A DNA stretch of 64,000 nt from contig CADBEA010000003.1 in NCBI GenBank assembly GCA_902793635.1, positions 1-64,000 of the forward strand. Direction: 5' to 3'. The stretch's first letter is position 1, and every line of letters starts with the position of its first letter. Positions 6,167 through 50,864 of this stretch are shown piece by piece. This DNA comes from an uncultured Erysipelotrichaceae bacterium (GTDB lineage Bacteria > Bacillota_I > Bacilli_A > Erysipelotrichales > Erysipelotrichaceae). The notes under the pieces are model-generated. The model saw only the letters and a list, made by a program, of their open reading frames with translations, searched no databases and was not told the origin of the DNA. A program made the position numbers and the translations under genes.

Positions 6167-7125
6167 CAGAGTTCCTCCAGCAGCCGGCGGATCGCCTTCT
6201 CAATGCACAGGGAATCATGACGGATCAGTTCCCTGTCAAAGGCGAGCAGCTGCTCGGGGATAATCTGATAGTCATGTTCCTGCTGACGAAGGGAAACCGG
6301 TGTGCTGCCTTCCTTCGCATATTTCTGCACTACCTTTTCCGGCAGGCTGTCACTGGCAACGATCACCGCGTCCACCGGCGCACCGTGATCTTTCAGAGCC
6401 TGTACGTGATCTTCCACCATATAGCCGTCCGTTTCACCGGGCTGTGTCATGGCGTTGCAGAAATAGACCTTGCGGCCCTTCGCTTTCTGCAGTGCCTTGC
6501 GGATATCGGGAATGATCACGTTCGGCAGGATACTGGTATATACCGATCCGATTCCGTAGATGATCAGATCCGCTTCCCGAATGGCCTTGATGGCATCCGG
6601 TGTGGCGTGTACCGGCACGTCATAGAAAACCTTGCGGATATGATTGGAACGGTCGGGAATGTTCGCCTCGCCTTTGACGATGACATCGTCTTCCATCAAA
6701 GCGAACAGGGAAATGACCTGGGTGGTTGCCGGAATGATATTTCCTTTGACGTTGAGGACTTTGCCGATGGTCTGCACAGCTTCCAGAAAGGAGCCGCACT
6801 GGTCGGTCATGGCTGTCAGGATCAGGTTGCCGAGATTGTGTCCGGCCACGTCTTCCTCATCGCCTTTGTCGTCGACAAAACGATAGTCCATCAGGGTGCT
6901 CATCAGTGATTCACTCTCAGCCAGAGCGATCATGACGTTGCGGATGTCACCCATCGCGGGAATATGAAACTTCCGGCGCAGACGGCCGGTGCTGCCGCCG
7001 TCGTCAGCGACAGTAACAATGGCTGTAATATCCAGGTTGTCAATATTCTTGATACCGCGGCAGATCGCCGACTGGCCGTGGCCGCCGCCGATAATCACCG
7101 CTTTTTTTCTTCTCGGTCTACTCAT
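6166..7125 (-). CDS. yvcK: YvcK/gluconeogenesis factor, CofD-like UDP-sugar-binding protein
   Basis: About 319 residues. The N-terminal glycine loop GGGHGQSAICRGIK followed by VTVADDGGSTGRLRR is the CofD/YvcK nucleotide-sugar-binding signature. YvcK is needed for growth on gluconeogenic carbon sources and for proper cell-wall synthesis; in B. subtilis it binds UDP-glucose and UDP-GlcNAc. Start 7125 (MSRPRRKK) is chosen because the glycine loop is then close to the N-terminus and AAAAGGA lies 9 bases upstream; ATGs at 7143 and 7155 are possible. The start overlaps the end of rapZ by 8 bases. Confidence 0.95.
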   Translation of the reverse strand: MSRPRRKKAVIIGGGHGQSAICRGIKNIDNLDITAIVTVADDGGSTGRLRRKFHIPAMGDIRNVMIALAESESLMSTLMDYRFVDDKGDEEDVAGHNLGNLILTAMTDQCGSFLEAVQTIGKVLNVKGNIIPATTQVISLFALMEDDVIVKGEANIPDRSNHIRKVFYDVPVHATPDAIKAIREADLIIYGIGSVYTSILPNVIIPDIRKALQKAKGRKVYFCNAMTQPGETDGYMVEDHVQALKDHGAPVDAVIVASDSLPEKVVQKYAKEGSTPVSLRQQEHDYQIIPEQLLAFDRELIRHDSLCIEKAIRRLLEEL

Positions 7126-7981
7126 GGATCCATTCCTTTTCATCACGATGCTCAAGATAGCAATTGTAGCTTTCCTTGTAGTGGTCGTACAGATAATTGG
7201 CGATGGCTACACTGCGGTGCTGGCCGCCGGTGCAGCCAACTGCCACAGTGAAGTGGTTTTTGCCCTCTTTGGCATACTGATCAAAGGCATAGTCGGTAAA
7301 GCTGAGAAACTTTTCCAGGAATTCCTGGGTTTCCGGTTTGTCGATGACATAGTCATAGACTTCCTTGTCATTGCCGGAATAGGGCCGCAGCGCGACGACC
7401 CAGAACGGGTTCGGCAGAAAACGGACGTCGACCATCAGGTCGGCATCCATCGGAACACCGTATTTATAGCCAAAGGAAAGAAAGGAGATCGAGAAATTCG
7501 GAATCGCCGATTTGGAGAAATATGACTCGATCTTGCGGCGGAATTCCTTTTCAGCCAGGTAGGATGTATCAATCGTAATAAAAGAATTGTTGATGATGCG
7601 GGCGAACATCTGTCTTTCCACCGCGATCGCTTCTTCCAGGGTATTTGCTTTATTTAAAAATAGCAGCGGATGCATACGCCGGGTAGCTTTGTAGCGTCTG
7701 AGCAGGATCGTATCGGAAGCGTCCAGAAACAGAACCTGCACGTCGATGCCCTGGCCGCGCAGATTGCGCAGAAACTCCGCGAAATCCTGGGCTGTGGTAG
7801 AAAGGGCGATGTAGCTGTAGCGGGGATCGGTGCTGTTTTCAATCATATCGACCAGCAGGCTGACCAGCTGAACCGGAAAATTATCCACGATATGATAGCC
7901 CATATCCTCGAGAAAACGAGTCGCTGTACTCTTACCGGCACCGCTCATGCCGGAGACAAGAATGACCTTTTTCTTCTGCAT
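7118..7981 (-). CDS. rapZ: RapZ (YvcJ) nucleotide-binding protein
   Basis: About 287 residues. Walker A at the N-terminus (SGMSGAGKST) followed by the family motif GYHIVDNFP; C-terminal domain with the conserved VGCTGGQHRSVAIA. RapZ/YvcJ binds GTP and ATP. In enterobacteria it controls the GlmZ/GlmS amino-sugar pathway through small RNAs; in Bacillota the role is less clear. Start 7981 (MQKKKVILVSG) is chosen because AAGGTGG lies 8 bases upstream; a GTG four codons earlier is possible. First gene of the rapZ-yvcK-whiA operon. Confidence 0.96.
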   Translation of the reverse strand: MQKKKVILVSGMSGAGKSTATRFLEDMGYHIVDNFPVQLVSLLVDMIENSTDPRYSYIALSTTAQDFAEFLRNLRGQGIDVQVLFLDASDTILLRRYKATRRMHPLLFLNKANTLEEAIAVERQMFARIINNSFITIDTSYLAEKEFRRKIESYFSKSAIPNFSISFLSFGYKYGVPMDADLMVDVRFLPNPFWVVALRPYSGNDKEVYDYVIDKPETQEFLEKFLSFTDYAFDQYAKEGKNHFTVAVGCTGGQHRSVAIANYLYDHYKESYNCYLEHRDEKEWIHE

Positions 7982-8033
7982 TTCACTCACCACCTTCTAA
8001 ATATTTTAACACATATACAATTGATCGATTCCG

Positions 8034-8063
8034 AAAGGAAAGGAAGGTGTCTCAGAACATCCT
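8034..8063 (-). terminator. Possible terminator after the 87-residue gene
   Basis: Minus strand GGAAGG and CCTTCC form a short stem around TGTTCTGAGACA, followed by a pyrimidine run TTTCCTTTC. The U-tract is imperfect, so this is tentative. It overlaps the end of the preceding gene. Confidence 0.4.
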
Positions 8064-8315
8064 TCCTCTGCTTTCATCAAGATTATCGCAGTAATATCTG
8101 ATTTTCAGTCCGGCCGAATAACGGTTTTCCGGATCCTGCAGGATCTGGTCGCCGGTCATCATCTGGCTTAACATGGCAGCTGCCGCGTCTTCGGCTTTGC
8201 CGGATCCGGCTCTGGCCAGCAGTTCGGCACAGCACATGTCCAGGATATTCCAGCCGTTGATATGATGTTCCTGCTTTAAAAAACTGATAATTTCTTCAAA
8301 TTCTCTTCTGTCCAT
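8052..8315 (-). CDS. Small uncharacterised protein
   Basis: 87 residues, not recognised. Predicted soluble and helical, beginning MDRREFEEIISFLKQ, with an adjacent CC pair (DMCCAELLA, about residues 27-30) and a basic C-terminus. It starts 2 bases after the stop of the Lgt-like/HAD fusion and belongs to the same run as hprK. In B. subtilis the hprK-lgt-ppaX cluster is followed by other small genes, but I cannot equate this one with any of them. The tight spacing and a plausible RBS (GAAAGGATC) make it a likely real gene. Confidence 0.7.
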   Translation of the reverse strand: MDRREFEEIISFLKQEHHINGWNILDMCCAELLARAGSGKAEDAAAAMLSQMMTGDQILQDPENRYSAGLKIRYYCDNLDESRGRMF

Positions 8316-8317
8316 CT

Positions 8318-9664
8318 TCAGATCCTTTCATATGCCCATTCATGGTTCTCATCCAGAAGGTCCAGCAGCTCGCGCATGTCCGTCATGATCATGTTGGGCT
8401 GTTCCGCTTCGATCTCGGTCTTGATGGTCGGATCGGAAAGGAAGGCAATCGAGAAAACACCGGCTGCTTTGGCTGCCTGCACGTCGGAGACGTTGTCACC
8501 GATGTAAATGCAGGAGTCATGACCACGCTTCAGTTTCTTGCCGGCATAGAGAATGCCGTCCGGTGCCGGTTTGGAAAGCTGATACATGTCACGGCCCAGA
8601 ACGACGCCGAAGCAATGCGCCAGACCAAGCTGTCTGAGCCACAGCTCGCAGGACGAAGTCATACGGCTGGAAACGACACCCAGCTTATAGCCTTCCGACC
8701 ATAAGACGTCCAGTGTCTCTTTGACGTGCGGGAACAGGGATACTTCATCACTCCATGAGAAGGTGCTCTGATAGTCGGAGTATTCCTTCACCATCTGATC
8801 CGGATCCTGATCCGGGAACAGTTTGATCATCTCATCACGCAGCGGCGGTCCGAAGACTTCCTGCTGTTTCTCGGCGGTGAAGTCACGGATGTCACCGTAT
8901 TTCTTGAACAGATAACTGAAGCACTGAATGACCATCTGATGGCTGTCCATCAATGTGCCGTCCAGGTCAAACAGAATGATCGGCTGGGTCGGCCGGCGGT
9001 TATGAACAATGTAATACAGGATCAGACCCACCAGTTCCACGCCGATCGTCAGGAACAGACTGTTGTTGGCATGGGTATCCAGGTGGAAGACCAGTGATAC
9101 GACTCTTGTCAGACCCGCCCACATCAGGGTCAGGGCTGTCAGGTCACCGCGTCGGCGGCCTTCTTTATAAGGTCTCAGAATATAGTTCAGCAATGCGAAG
9201 CCGATCAGGTCCAGACCGTTGAGGATCAGTACGGTCGGCTGTTCGAACGCCCGGCCGGTACGGGTAATGATACCAAACAACAGGACAGCCGGCAGGACAA
9301 TGTCCAGGGTGCGCAGGATCGACATGTGCCGCACCTGCGTATAGAAGAACATGAAGATGACCGCGCCGGTCATGACACCAAGTATGTCGAAACCGCCGTC
9401 TCCGATTGCGAACATGTACGGAATGTATTTGAGATACTCCGACAGGTTTTCAATCAGCCAGAAAACGCGGCCGAACAGGACACCGGCGATCATGCACAGA
9501 ATCATGATCTCATCCGTCGTGTCAATACCGTAACCGTGATCCTTCATCAGATCAGCGATCAGAAAATAAGCTGCTATAATACCGGCAATCAGGGTCACCG
9601 CATACCAGCGGATCGAGAGACCGCCAATCGTCATCAATGTTGAACCATCCGGAAAGAATGTCAT
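8318..9664 (-). CDS. Fusion: degenerate Lgt-like membrane domain + PpaX-like HAD phosphatase
   Basis: 448 residues. Residues 1-225 look like prolipoprotein diacylglyceryl transferase (Lgt): the N-terminus MTFFPDGSTL..LSIRWYAV is the Lgt start and several membrane helices follow. The catalytic regions are altered: the loop usually GG-x-x-FHGG reads GGFDILGVMTGA without the histidine, and the usual GRIGNFxNGE reads TRTGRAFEQP without the Asn and Glu. Residues 228-448 are a HAD hydrolase: LFDLDGT (nucleophile D233), SSRMTS, SKPAPDG and YIGDNVSDV. Bacillota commonly have hprK-lgt-ppaX as separate genes, so this is lgt and ppaX joined. The start overlaps the hprK stop by 4 bases (ATGA). The phosphatase half should be active, possibly on pyrophosphate or HPr-Ser-P-related phosphate; the membrane half probably does not modify lipoproteins. 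Confidence 0.85.
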   Translation of the reverse strand: MTFFPDGSTLMTIGGLSIRWYAVTLIAGIIAAYFLIADLMKDHGYGIDTTDEIMILCMIAGVLFGRVFWLIENLSEYLKYIPYMFAIGDGGFDILGVMTGAVIFMFFYTQVRHMSILRTLDIVLPAVLLFGIITRTGRAFEQPTVLILNGLDLIGFALLNYILRPYKEGRRRGDLTALTLMWAGLTRVVSLVFHLDTHANNSLFLTIGVELVGLILYYIVHNRRPTQPIILFDLDGTLMDSHQMVIQCFSYLFKKYGDIRDFTAEKQQEVFGPPLRDEMIKLFPDQDPDQMVKEYSDYQSTFSWSDEVSLFPHVKETLDVLWSEGYKLGVVSSRMTSSCELWLRQLGLAHCFGVVLGRDMYQLSKPAPDGILYAGKKLKRGHDSCIYIGDNVSDVQAAKAAGVFSIAFLSDPTIKTEIEAEQPNMIMTDMRELLDLLDENHEWAYERI

Positions 9665-10611
9665 TCTTCACCTCCTTCAGCCACGAATCTGTGGAAACGG
9701 CCGCGGATTTCGAGGGCGCTGTTGAATCCGACTTCCTGCAGACGGAAATTGGTAACCGCTGATTCGATCAGGACAGCGACGTTGCGGCCGGCACTGATCG
9801 GCAGGATAACGGTCGGAACCAGAACATCCATGACTCTGGTAAACCGCTGTGCCTCGTCACCGATCCGGTTGTATTCCGATTCGGGATCATACTGGGCCAG
9901 CTGGATCACAAGGTCGATCTGTTTCTTTTCACCGAGAGCGGACGCACCGAACATCTTTTCGACGTCAATGATACCGATACCGCGGATCTCCAGCATGCCT
10001 TTGATGATTTCCGGCGCATGGCCGAAGATCTTGTTGTGAATATGCTGGACATCGACCCTGTCGTCGGCGATCAGAATATGACCGCGGCGGATCAGCTCCA
10101 GAGCCGTTTCCGACTTGCCCATGCCGCTTTCCCCGACCAACAGGACACCTTTGCCGTAAACATCCATCAGAACACCTGACATGGTGTCTTCCTTGGCAAG
10201 GTTCTCATCCAGGAAGGTGATGATATCGGCAATCAGCCGGTAGGTCTCAAGGGAAGTGCGCAGGATCGGGAAGTTGGTCGCCTCGGCGATCTCCTTCAGA
10301 ATCGGCGGAAGTTCGTTGTTTTTGGTAATAATGATGGCCGGTGTCAGTCCGTCTGTCAGCATCGGATAGCGTTCCCGCTGCTGCTGTTCCGTCATTGTGG
10401 CAATGAATTCGATTTCCTTATTGCCAATAACGACGATACGGCGCGGCTCGGTGATACGGTTAAAACCGCACAGTTCAAAACCGGGCCGGTTGATATCGGG
10501 AACGACGGTCCATCTGTCCAGGGCATGATCGTTGCCGGTCAGCTGTTCAAATTTAAAAAACTGGACGATTTCGCGAATCGTAACTTTTTTTGTATATTTT
10601 GTTTCGGACAT
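9661..10611 (-). CDS. hprK: HPr kinase/phosphorylase
   Basis: 316 residues, normal length. It phosphorylates and dephosphorylates Ser46 of HPr, which switches CcpA-dependent carbon catabolite repression. Walker A is GESGMGKSETALELI (about 160-174), followed by HILIADDRVD with the paired catalytic aspartates and the family signature LEIRGIGIIDVEKMFG (about 207-222). One oddity: the conserved His just before GVL-x-DVYG (VHGVLVDVYG in B. subtilis) is Ser here (MSGVLMDVYG, S145). A perfect TATAAT lies upstream at 10637-10632 and RBS GGAGG precedes the ATG. First gene of hprK - Lgt/HAD fusion - 87-residue protein. Confidence 0.95.
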   Translation of the reverse strand: MSETKYTKKVTIREIVQFFKFEQLTGNDHALDRWTVVPDINRPGFELCGFNRITEPRRIVVIGNKEIEFIATMTEQQQRERYPMLTDGLTPAIIITKNNELPPILKEIAEATNFPILRTSLETYRLIADIITFLDENLAKEDTMSGVLMDVYGKGVLLVGESGMGKSETALELIRRGHILIADDRVDVQHIHNKIFGHAPEIIKGMLEIRGIGIIDVEKMFGASALGEKKQIDLVIQLAQYDPESEYNRIGDEAQRFTRVMDVLVPTVILPISAGRNVAVLIESAVTNFRLQEVGFNSALEIRGRFHRFVAEGGEE

Positions 10612-50123: not shown

Positions 50124-50864
50124 TTATTCGTATGTGAATTCGTAGTAGGTCAGGATGTTGTTTCCTGTTTCGGTGACACCATAGGTCGCGGCTGATCCAA
50201 GCAATCCGTCCTCCCGATAAGTCAGTACAGTGTAGCTGCCAATCGCACCGTTTAACATGGCGTTGATTTTGATCAGTCTGCCCTGGTCGTCATATTCCAG
50301 CGTATAGTCGAAACTGGACTTGGTTTCCGTCGTCGTATCCGTTACTTTGACATAGGTCGCCTTGTTGTCATTGTTGTATCCGAATTCCACGGTATGGAAC
50401 GCAACCGAAGAAGCGCTCTTTTCCGTTCCTTCGTAATCAATGATGCTGGTAAGTCTGCCCTTGTCATAAGTGTATTCCGTAAAGACGTTGTTGCCGCTCT
50501 TGGAAATACGGATATTTGAATCGTTGTATCTGTAAATGTAGCGGACCGCCCCGACTTTGGTTCCGTCTTCCCCTAAATAATATGCGTCACATGTTTTTTC
50601 CTTGTAATCGCATTCCAGAACACTGGGCGCTTCCGACGGCTGAACGTTTTCCTTCAGCTGTTCGACCGTTTTGTAAACCTGATCAGTATTGTTGATGTAG
50701 GCTGTGGAGATTCTCTTTTTGAATCCGGCACTTTTCATCGCTTCGGCATACAGGTAGTATGGCTCTGCCGTATATGCTGTAACATGTCCCTCTGAACTGC
50801 ATCCCCCGAACAGCAGTGCCATGGACATTGATAAGATCGCGATGCCTGTTTTTTTCCATTCCAT
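50124..50864 (-). CDS. Lipoprotein with YD-like repeats
   Basis: 246 residues. Type II signal peptide with lipobox LLFGGC, so lipid-anchored outside the membrane. The mature part is beta-rich and carries short YD/RHS-like motifs (YTYDKGRLTSI, YDDQGRLIKI, YREDGLLGS), as seen in cell-surface repeat proteins. Function unknown. It lies behind a terminator-like hairpin and a regulated promoter-like region (50911-51157), so it may be expressed only by read-through or from a weak promoter near 50900. Confidence 0.8.
   Translation of the reverse strand: MEWKKTGIAILSMSMALLFGGCSSEGHVTAYTAEPYYLYAEAMKSAGFKKRISTAYINNTDQVYKTVEQLKENVQPSEAPSVLECDYKEKTCDAYYLGEDGTKVGAVRYIYRYNDSNIRISKSGNNVFTEYTYDKGRLTSIIDYEGTEKSASSVAFHTVEFGYNNDNKATYVKVTDTTTETKSSFDYTLEYDDQGRLIKINAMLNGAIGSYTVLTYREDGLLGSAATYGVTETGNNILTYYEFTYE

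Follow-up and report, generated by a model that had tools for sequence, protein, structure and literature searches.

An apparently inactive Lgt-like membrane domain fused to a HAD phosphatase behind hprK in Erysipelotrichaceae

Membrane enzymes may keep their fold after catalysis has been lost, as in the rhomboid pseudoproteases iRhom and Derlin. For Lgt of Escherichia coli (PF01790; structures 5AZB and 5AZC), the residues Y26, H103, R143, N146, G154 and R239 are given as absolute requirements in PMC13251419, and the contacts to phosphatidylglycerol (PG) described in PMC4728403 include Y26, the GG of arm 2 and R143. In Bacillus subtilis, lgt is part of the cluster hprK-lgt-yvoD-yvoE-yvoF (PMC12345273). 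As stated in PMC2937029, HprK/P makes pyrophosphate while dephosphorylating P-Ser-HPr and can also use pyrophosphate as donor; the same paper cites the proposal of Mijakovic et al. that YvoE, encoded in the hprK operon, lowers the kinase activity and stimulates dephosphorylation, and it mentions that HprK of Brucella binds a pyrophosphatase in two-hybrid tests. Here we describe a locus in which an Lgt-like domain and a HAD phosphatase form one chain. In listings of the open-access PMC literature, neither an Lgt::HAD fusion nor a pseudo-Lgt of this kind appeared as the subject of a paper.

The window, i.e. the whole analysed stretch of 64,000 nucleotides from an uncultured Erysipelotrichaceae bacterium (contig CADBEA010000003.1), contains the fusion in the order uvrA, a DUF523-like gene, two ChrA-like genes, hprK, fusion, orf87, rapZ, yvcK and whiA (Table 1), where HprK was identified by match and rapZ, yvcK, whiA, uvrA and chrA are presumed names. 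A preliminary description of this DNA had read the gene as an Lgt-like domain joined to a HAD phosphatase in a single chain, and the 448 aa frame indeed matches PF01790 at residues 10-139 with 72.8 bits (Pfam gathering score 24.9) and HAD_2 (PF13419) at residues 230-407 with 148.9 bits (cut-off 23.8). The former match spans only positions 3-131 of the 240 of the profile, and with 54.6 bits the protein remains below the cut-off of 118.9 of the NCBIfam equivalog for Lgt, TIGR00544. The ATGA overlap between the hprK stop and the ATG of the fusion suggests that both genes may be translationally coupled. The small frame orf87, situated between the fusion and rapZ, is kept in many genomes of the genus and has no match in Pfam or NCBIfam. 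PADLOC gave no match, and a role in a defence system was rejected on these grounds.

Table 1. Positions in the window of the fusion, its parts and residues, its neighbours and a putative lipoprotein gene.
Feature	Position	Strand	Remark
pseudo-Lgt::HAD fusion ORF, 448 aa	8318..9664	(-)	single open frame; architecture repeated in 28/63 genus genomes
Lgt-derived 7-TM half, residues 1-225, predicted to be catalytically degenerate, head domain deleted	8990..9664	(-)	AF2 model and structure search
seven predicted TM helices, residues 20-42, 47-72, 94-112, 116-140, 145-163, 174-193, 203-222	8999..9607	(-)	DSSP on AF2 model
R135, equivalent to E. coli R143, retained 27/28	9260..9262	(-)	alignment
R138, at the position of E. 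coli N146, derived Arg/Lys in 25/28	9251..9253	(-)	alignment
gap site of E151, G154 and periplasmic head domain, residues 141-144	9233..9244	(-)	alignment
R187, equivalent to E. coli R239, retained 21/28	9104..9106	(-)	alignment
E210 in TM7, derived acid, 21/28	9035..9037	(-)	I/V/M/L in 60/60 intact fusions
HAD phosphatase half (residues 226-448 plus stop codon) with D233/D235, K365, D390 and D394 kept	8318..8989	(-)	conservation, HAD_2, 2ah5
hprK	9661..10611	(-)	directly upstream of fusion; stop overlaps fusion start (ATGA)
orf87, small conserved ORF after fusion	8052..8315	(-)	no family match
presumed rapZ, conserved neighbour, then yvcK, whiA	7118..7993	(-)	order conserved
putative lipoprotein	50124..50864	(-)	lipobox LFGG/C, F at -3 instead of L/V/I

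An AF2 model of the whole fusion (pLDDT 87.7) contains seven TM helices. Since a VIA search with this model listed HAD chains only, the Lgt half was then modelled and searched alone. The model of residues 1-225 (pLDDT 83.9) aligned to E. coli Lgt 5azb over 217 residues with a Z of 17.0 and an rmsd of 4.0 in VIA-align, the next chain reaching 5.9, and its Lgt match in Foldseek had an E of 7.6e-08; intact Lgts were part of the alignment behind this model, which favours an Lgt fold. The earlier proposal that the Lgt half keeps its fold, a seven-TM one homologous to that of E. coli Lgt, is supported. Loops predicted to lie inside carry on average 7.2 K+R, compared with 3.7 in those predicted to lie outside, and are the richer ones in 26 of 27 proteins; from this charge bias the HAD half is predicted to be cytosolic.

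The catalytic residues were read from an alignment of 145 rows, comprising E. coli Lgt, 60 intact fusions, 7 Lgts of the sister family, 47 standalone Lgts, 28 fusions of the genus of the window (one of them cut by a contig end) and two degenerate proteins from outside this genus; five sequences had been removed beforehand, namely a duplicate of E. coli Lgt, two standalone proteins that are only distantly related (L189, L190) and two low-scoring matches (L110, L112). In E. coli numbering, the window fusion has H103 replaced by L, N146 by R, Y235 by A, E243 by L and R246 by H, and E151 and G154 are deleted along with the periplasmic head domain, while Y26, R73, G99, D129, R143 and R239 are retained. 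The preliminary description, which had stated that the catalytic residues were lost, was therefore correct for H103, N146 and E151, but the loss does not extend to all active-site residues, R143, Y26, R73, G99 and R239 being kept; among the six residues essential in E. coli, Y26, R143 and R239 are present and H103, N146 and G154 are missing. The pattern is common to the genus. H103, N146, E151, G154, Y235 and E243, as well as the head domain, are absent from 28/28 fusions, and retention amounts to 28 for R73 and for D129, 27 for R143 and for G99, and 21 for R239 and for Y26. We infer from these losses that the Lgt half of the window fusion would be without transferase activity.

H103 taken by itself is no sure marker of activity, because this position holds Q in 31, H in 25 and Y in 4 of the 60 intact fusions of the family and because Y and W replacements are described for Firmicutes and Actinobacteria in PMC13251419. 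The natural Q occurs in 31/60 intact fusion Lgts (e.g. in L013, L018 and L023) and in 6/7 Lgts of the sister family, and by match counts 28 of the 31 genomes with an H103Q intact fusion have a single PF01790 match. H103Q is reported to be inactive in E. coli Lgt (PMC4728403), and these natural variants, which are often the only Lgt detected in a genome, are relevant to the dispute about what H103 does.

The fusion of both domains is not peculiar to the window but spread through the family. PF01790 matches in the 195 family genomes lie mostly in open frames of 477-524 aa, and the arrangement hprK-[Lgt::HAD] is carried by most of the genomes sampled. In the sister family (f2) the corresponding frames measure 265-292 aa, and all seven loci read are uvrA-hprK-lgt, unfused and with no adjoining HAD match; hprK, lgt and the HAD gene are separate neighbours in loci named for Sporosarcina or Paenibacillus (L255, L279, L288, L290, L297, L299). 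This distribution shows that the Lgt::HAD fusion is ancient and stands at the base of the family. Named bearers of the intact form are Holdemania filiformis, Anaerorhabdus furcosa and Erysipelothrix urinaevulpis (L236, L237, L241); their fusions resemble the window protein in the position behind hprK and the order of the domains and have an ancestor-like form, but differ from it in the full-length Lgt half and the total length of 484-488 aa. As R143, N146, N149, E151, G154, E202, R239, E243 and R246 are kept in 60/60 intact fusions, these are expected to be functional transferases in most of the family, and a single polypeptide would then unite the maturation of lipoproteins with the control of catabolite repression.

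The preliminary description had further argued that another Lgt must exist elsewhere in the genome, and a genome search located it at G000:C23:9157-9873, a full-length protein of 252 aa that matches PF01790 with 180.4 bits in the genome search and 180.8 bits in the Pfam search, over profile positions 3-239 of 240; the possibility that a second lgt is missing was ruled out by this match. The standalone protein has R143, R239, E243 and R246 and the substitutions N146C, E151C and H103Y. Among the 47 standalone Lgts the four former residues are present in 47/47, N146C and E151C in 47/47 and H103Y in 38/47. According to PMC13251419, distant Lgts may carry Cys at 146 and Cys or Asp at 151, N146C being found in Leptospira interrogans, and a mycobacterial Lgt paralogue with Y26H and N146C is presumed to have low activity. 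Lsp is also encoded in the genome of the window. We regard the standalone Cys-type Lgt as the likely replacement that would lipidate the lipoproteins. The lipoprotein of the window that had been credited with a proper lipobox does have a cysteine lipobox, but with F at position -3; a lipobox regular expression run over the window returned 0 matches and missed this known case too.

At a threshold of at least 178 bits in a search with the standalone protein, the Cys type was found in 30/195 family genomes, a count that leaves aside 7 further matches at 92-106 bits (distant paralogues or intact fusion) and in which related genomes are not independent. Of these 30, 25 are without a detectable intact fused Lgt, i.e. 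15 genomes of the window's genus together with G003, G004, G028, G039, G053, G060, G061, G088, G112 and G149; the contig of G039 ends about 0.5 kb past hprK, so that its locus could not be read. Both forms are present in the remaining 5/30 (G057, G090, G147, G058, G114), from which 3 of the 60 intact domains read were taken. The 165 genomes without the standalone type include 153 with another PF01790 match over the cut-off (a few of them fragments at contig ends; the catalytic residues were read in the 60 intact domains), 11 with none and 1 with a sub-threshold match. Moreover, all 28 genomes of the genus with a degenerate fusion hold a standalone Lgt as well. Degeneration of the Lgt half thus appears, as far as can be read from the genomes, to be confined to lineages holding the standalone Lgt. 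Further degenerate fusions occur in other genera, in G028 (L187:3926-5314(+)) and G053 (L017:1498-2835(+)), and have apparently arisen independently of that in the window's genus. In G003 (L202:4417-5646(+)), the HAD domain follows a mostly hydrophobic stretch of about 190 residues to which the Lgt queries gave no match, probably another and farther degenerated membrane half. The genomes G055, G016, G113 and G144, although of high stated completeness, yielded no hprK and no lgt scoring above the cut-off, which may be due to loss of the locus or to an assembly gap.

Within the genus, sampled with 63 genomes (60 plus G031, G165 and G193), 28 carry the degenerate fusion, 26 a HAD protein alone behind hprK and 3 an HprK::HAD chain; the 6 unassigned genomes comprise G195 (contig end), G237 (no HAD match downstream of hprK) and G199, G225, G232 and G233 (no hprK over the cut-off). 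The degenerate fusion is also found in Lactimicrobium massiliense Marseille-P4301 (L245), the record of which is not labelled a MAG; in view of PMC12786226, the genus probably corresponds to Bulleidia of GTDB. In a FastTree tree of HprK plus HAD with 126 tips, the genus forms one group (support 1.00), as do the degenerate fusions (1.00), with the HAD-alone genomes G209/G197/G230 and G216 nested inside the latter; the remaining HAD-alone genomes and those with HprK::HAD form the other group (0.99). A FastTree tree of the HAD domain only agrees, with the same four genomes nested in the fusion group (0.999) and a support of 0.73 for the genus. Parsimony requires at least three deletions of the membrane half within the genus, each of which spared the HAD domain, and six HAD-alone proteins begin no more than 13 residues away from their DxDGT motif. 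In a FastTree tree of the Lgt domain the degenerate halves form one group as well; because its support is only 0.011, they were placed by gene position, by the HAD and HprK plus HAD trees and by match scores, the degenerate half in L222, for example, scoring 80 bits to intact fused Lgt and 34 bits to the standalone type.

Where it is present, the pseudo-Lgt half is under purifying selection and is not decaying. In six close pairs, whose two halves each had a synonymous p-distance of less than 0.6, dN/dS was 0.052-0.068 for the Lgt half and 0.023-0.054 for the HAD half, and the mean pairwise identity over 27 fusions of the genus was 39% in the Lgt half versus 53% in the HAD half. G44, R66, W69, D89, G91, D121, R135, R172 and G173 of the Lgt half are at least 96% identical in 27 proteins, and two intramembrane charges have become newly conserved, R138 (basic in 25/28) and E210 in TM7 (acid in 21/28).

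The HAD half retains its catalytic motifs DxD, K and D...D (D233, D235, K365, D390 and D394) throughout 27 proteins, and a structure search aligned it to 2ah5 with a Z of 26.3. Among 57 NCBIfam families its best match was PpaX (NF009804), with 127.4 bits below the equivalog cut-off of 218, and phosphoglycolate phosphatases came next. It shares with PpaX/YvoE of the B. subtilis hprK operon the HAD subfamily IA, the best NCBIfam match and the neighbourhood of hprK, but it differs in the score below the cut-off and in being predicted to be tethered to the membrane. In three related genomes of the genus, G217, G220 and G226, HprK and the HAD domain are one chain of 537-539 aa (L129:1765-3378(-), L131:2804-4423(+), L134:3073-4686(+)). 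These chains are the strongest sequence evidence that HprK and the HAD domain act together, and they link the presumed pyrophosphatase physically to HprK. The linkage to hprK, the HprK::HAD chains and the published work on YvoE together lead us to infer that the fused HAD is a PpaX-like pyrophosphatase serving HprK.

Thus, it might be proposed, with a probability of roughly 60%, that a retired Lgt has been kept as the membrane seat of this pyrophosphatase. As the distribution shows, an ancestral hprK-lgt-ppaX cluster became hprK-[lgt::ppaX] by fusion at the root of the family, and a second, standalone Cys-type Lgt, present in some lineages, would have freed the fused Lgt half and taken over lipoprotein lipidation. 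In the window's genus the fused half would then have lost catalysis; purifying selection has preserved it as a domain of seven helices, which most likely holds the cytosolic HAD at the membrane near HprK. Phosphorolysis of P-Ser-HPr by HprK yields pyrophosphate, which the HAD would hydrolyse, pushing HprK towards dephosphorylation and easing catabolite repression. The membrane-anchor role suggested earlier is plausible in view of the seven TM helices, the predicted cytosolic HAD and the purifying selection, and seating at the membrane would be the reason for retention. Counted against this reading are the PpaX score below the cut-off with phosphoglycolate phosphatases close behind, the substitutions N146C, E151C and H103Y of the standalone Lgt, together with the low activity presumed for the mycobacterial paralogue, and the five genomes with both Lgt forms; the repeated loss of the membrane half with the HAD kept speaks against an indispensable membrane coupling, and anchoring must be dispensable in some lineages, since the deletion occurred at least three times. 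Compared with iRhom and Derlin, the fold is unrelated, and the pseudo-Lgt is fused to a soluble phosphatase and has been replaced by a paralogue. Within one family a natural series comprises fusion, paralogue replacement, an apparent loss of catalysis in a preserved fold, deletion, and a renewed fusion of the HAD, now with HprK. Since the same locus offers relatives of this membrane pseudoenzyme that are presumably active, inactive or deleted, the question of what a retired membrane enzyme is retained for becomes directly testable.

The same deletions, which left 26/63 genomes with the HAD alone, and the degenerating cases in G053, G028 and G003 would also fit a relic that is about to disappear and persists only because a deletion must not impair how the HAD is expressed or how soluble it is. 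The dN/dS of 0.05-0.07 in the Lgt half, the nine positions of at least 96% identity in 27 proteins and the new charges at R138 and E210 oppose such a vestige, which we consider unlikely. Those charges, together with the purifying selection and the retention of the PG-contact residues Y26, G98/G99 and R143 (contacts as in PMC4728403) while transfer residues were lost, might rather indicate a lipid-responsive regulator, in which a cavity formed by Y26, GG, R143, R138, R239 and E210 binds PG or another anionic lipid and alters the phosphatase, so that the state of the membrane would be coupled to HprK. Retention of Y26, GG and R143 is compatible with lipid binding but does not by itself point to lipid sensing, which is possible; on the other hand, the domain was repeatedly lost while the HAD stayed, R239 and Y26 are each found in only 21/28, and R138 and E210 may be structural salt bridges, and we therefore regard this regulator as quite improbable. 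The specific version in which the former transferase is a transmembrane regulator whose PG site and buried R138/E210 pair tune the fused pyrophosphatase is still more speculative; if true, the phospholipid state of the membrane would feed into HprK and carbon catabolite control. We give very little credence to the idea that the Lgt half is still an enzyme, acting on another acceptor or donor through R143 (27/28) and R239 (21/28) without the head. Although PMC13251419 describes subgroups of Lgt with divergent motifs and proposes that these may act on a different substrate or by a different mechanism, the essential H103, N146 and G154 are lost in 28/28 and the entire head is absent. Finally, the genome of the window is in 79 contigs, which could raise the suspicion of an assembly or frameshift artefact, but the architecture recurs in 28 genomes, some of them single-contig (G031, G125), and in L. 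massiliense Marseille-P4301, and dN/dS is low in both halves; recurrence and low dN/dS rule this reading out for practical purposes, and retention as a membrane seat remains the reading that we prefer.

The opposite fate of the fusion is seen in G037, where the frame L211:3875-4963(+), of 362 aa, has an intact Lgt half followed by what by eye is a short remnant of the HAD; judged by length and match, G080 has a fusion of the same kind.
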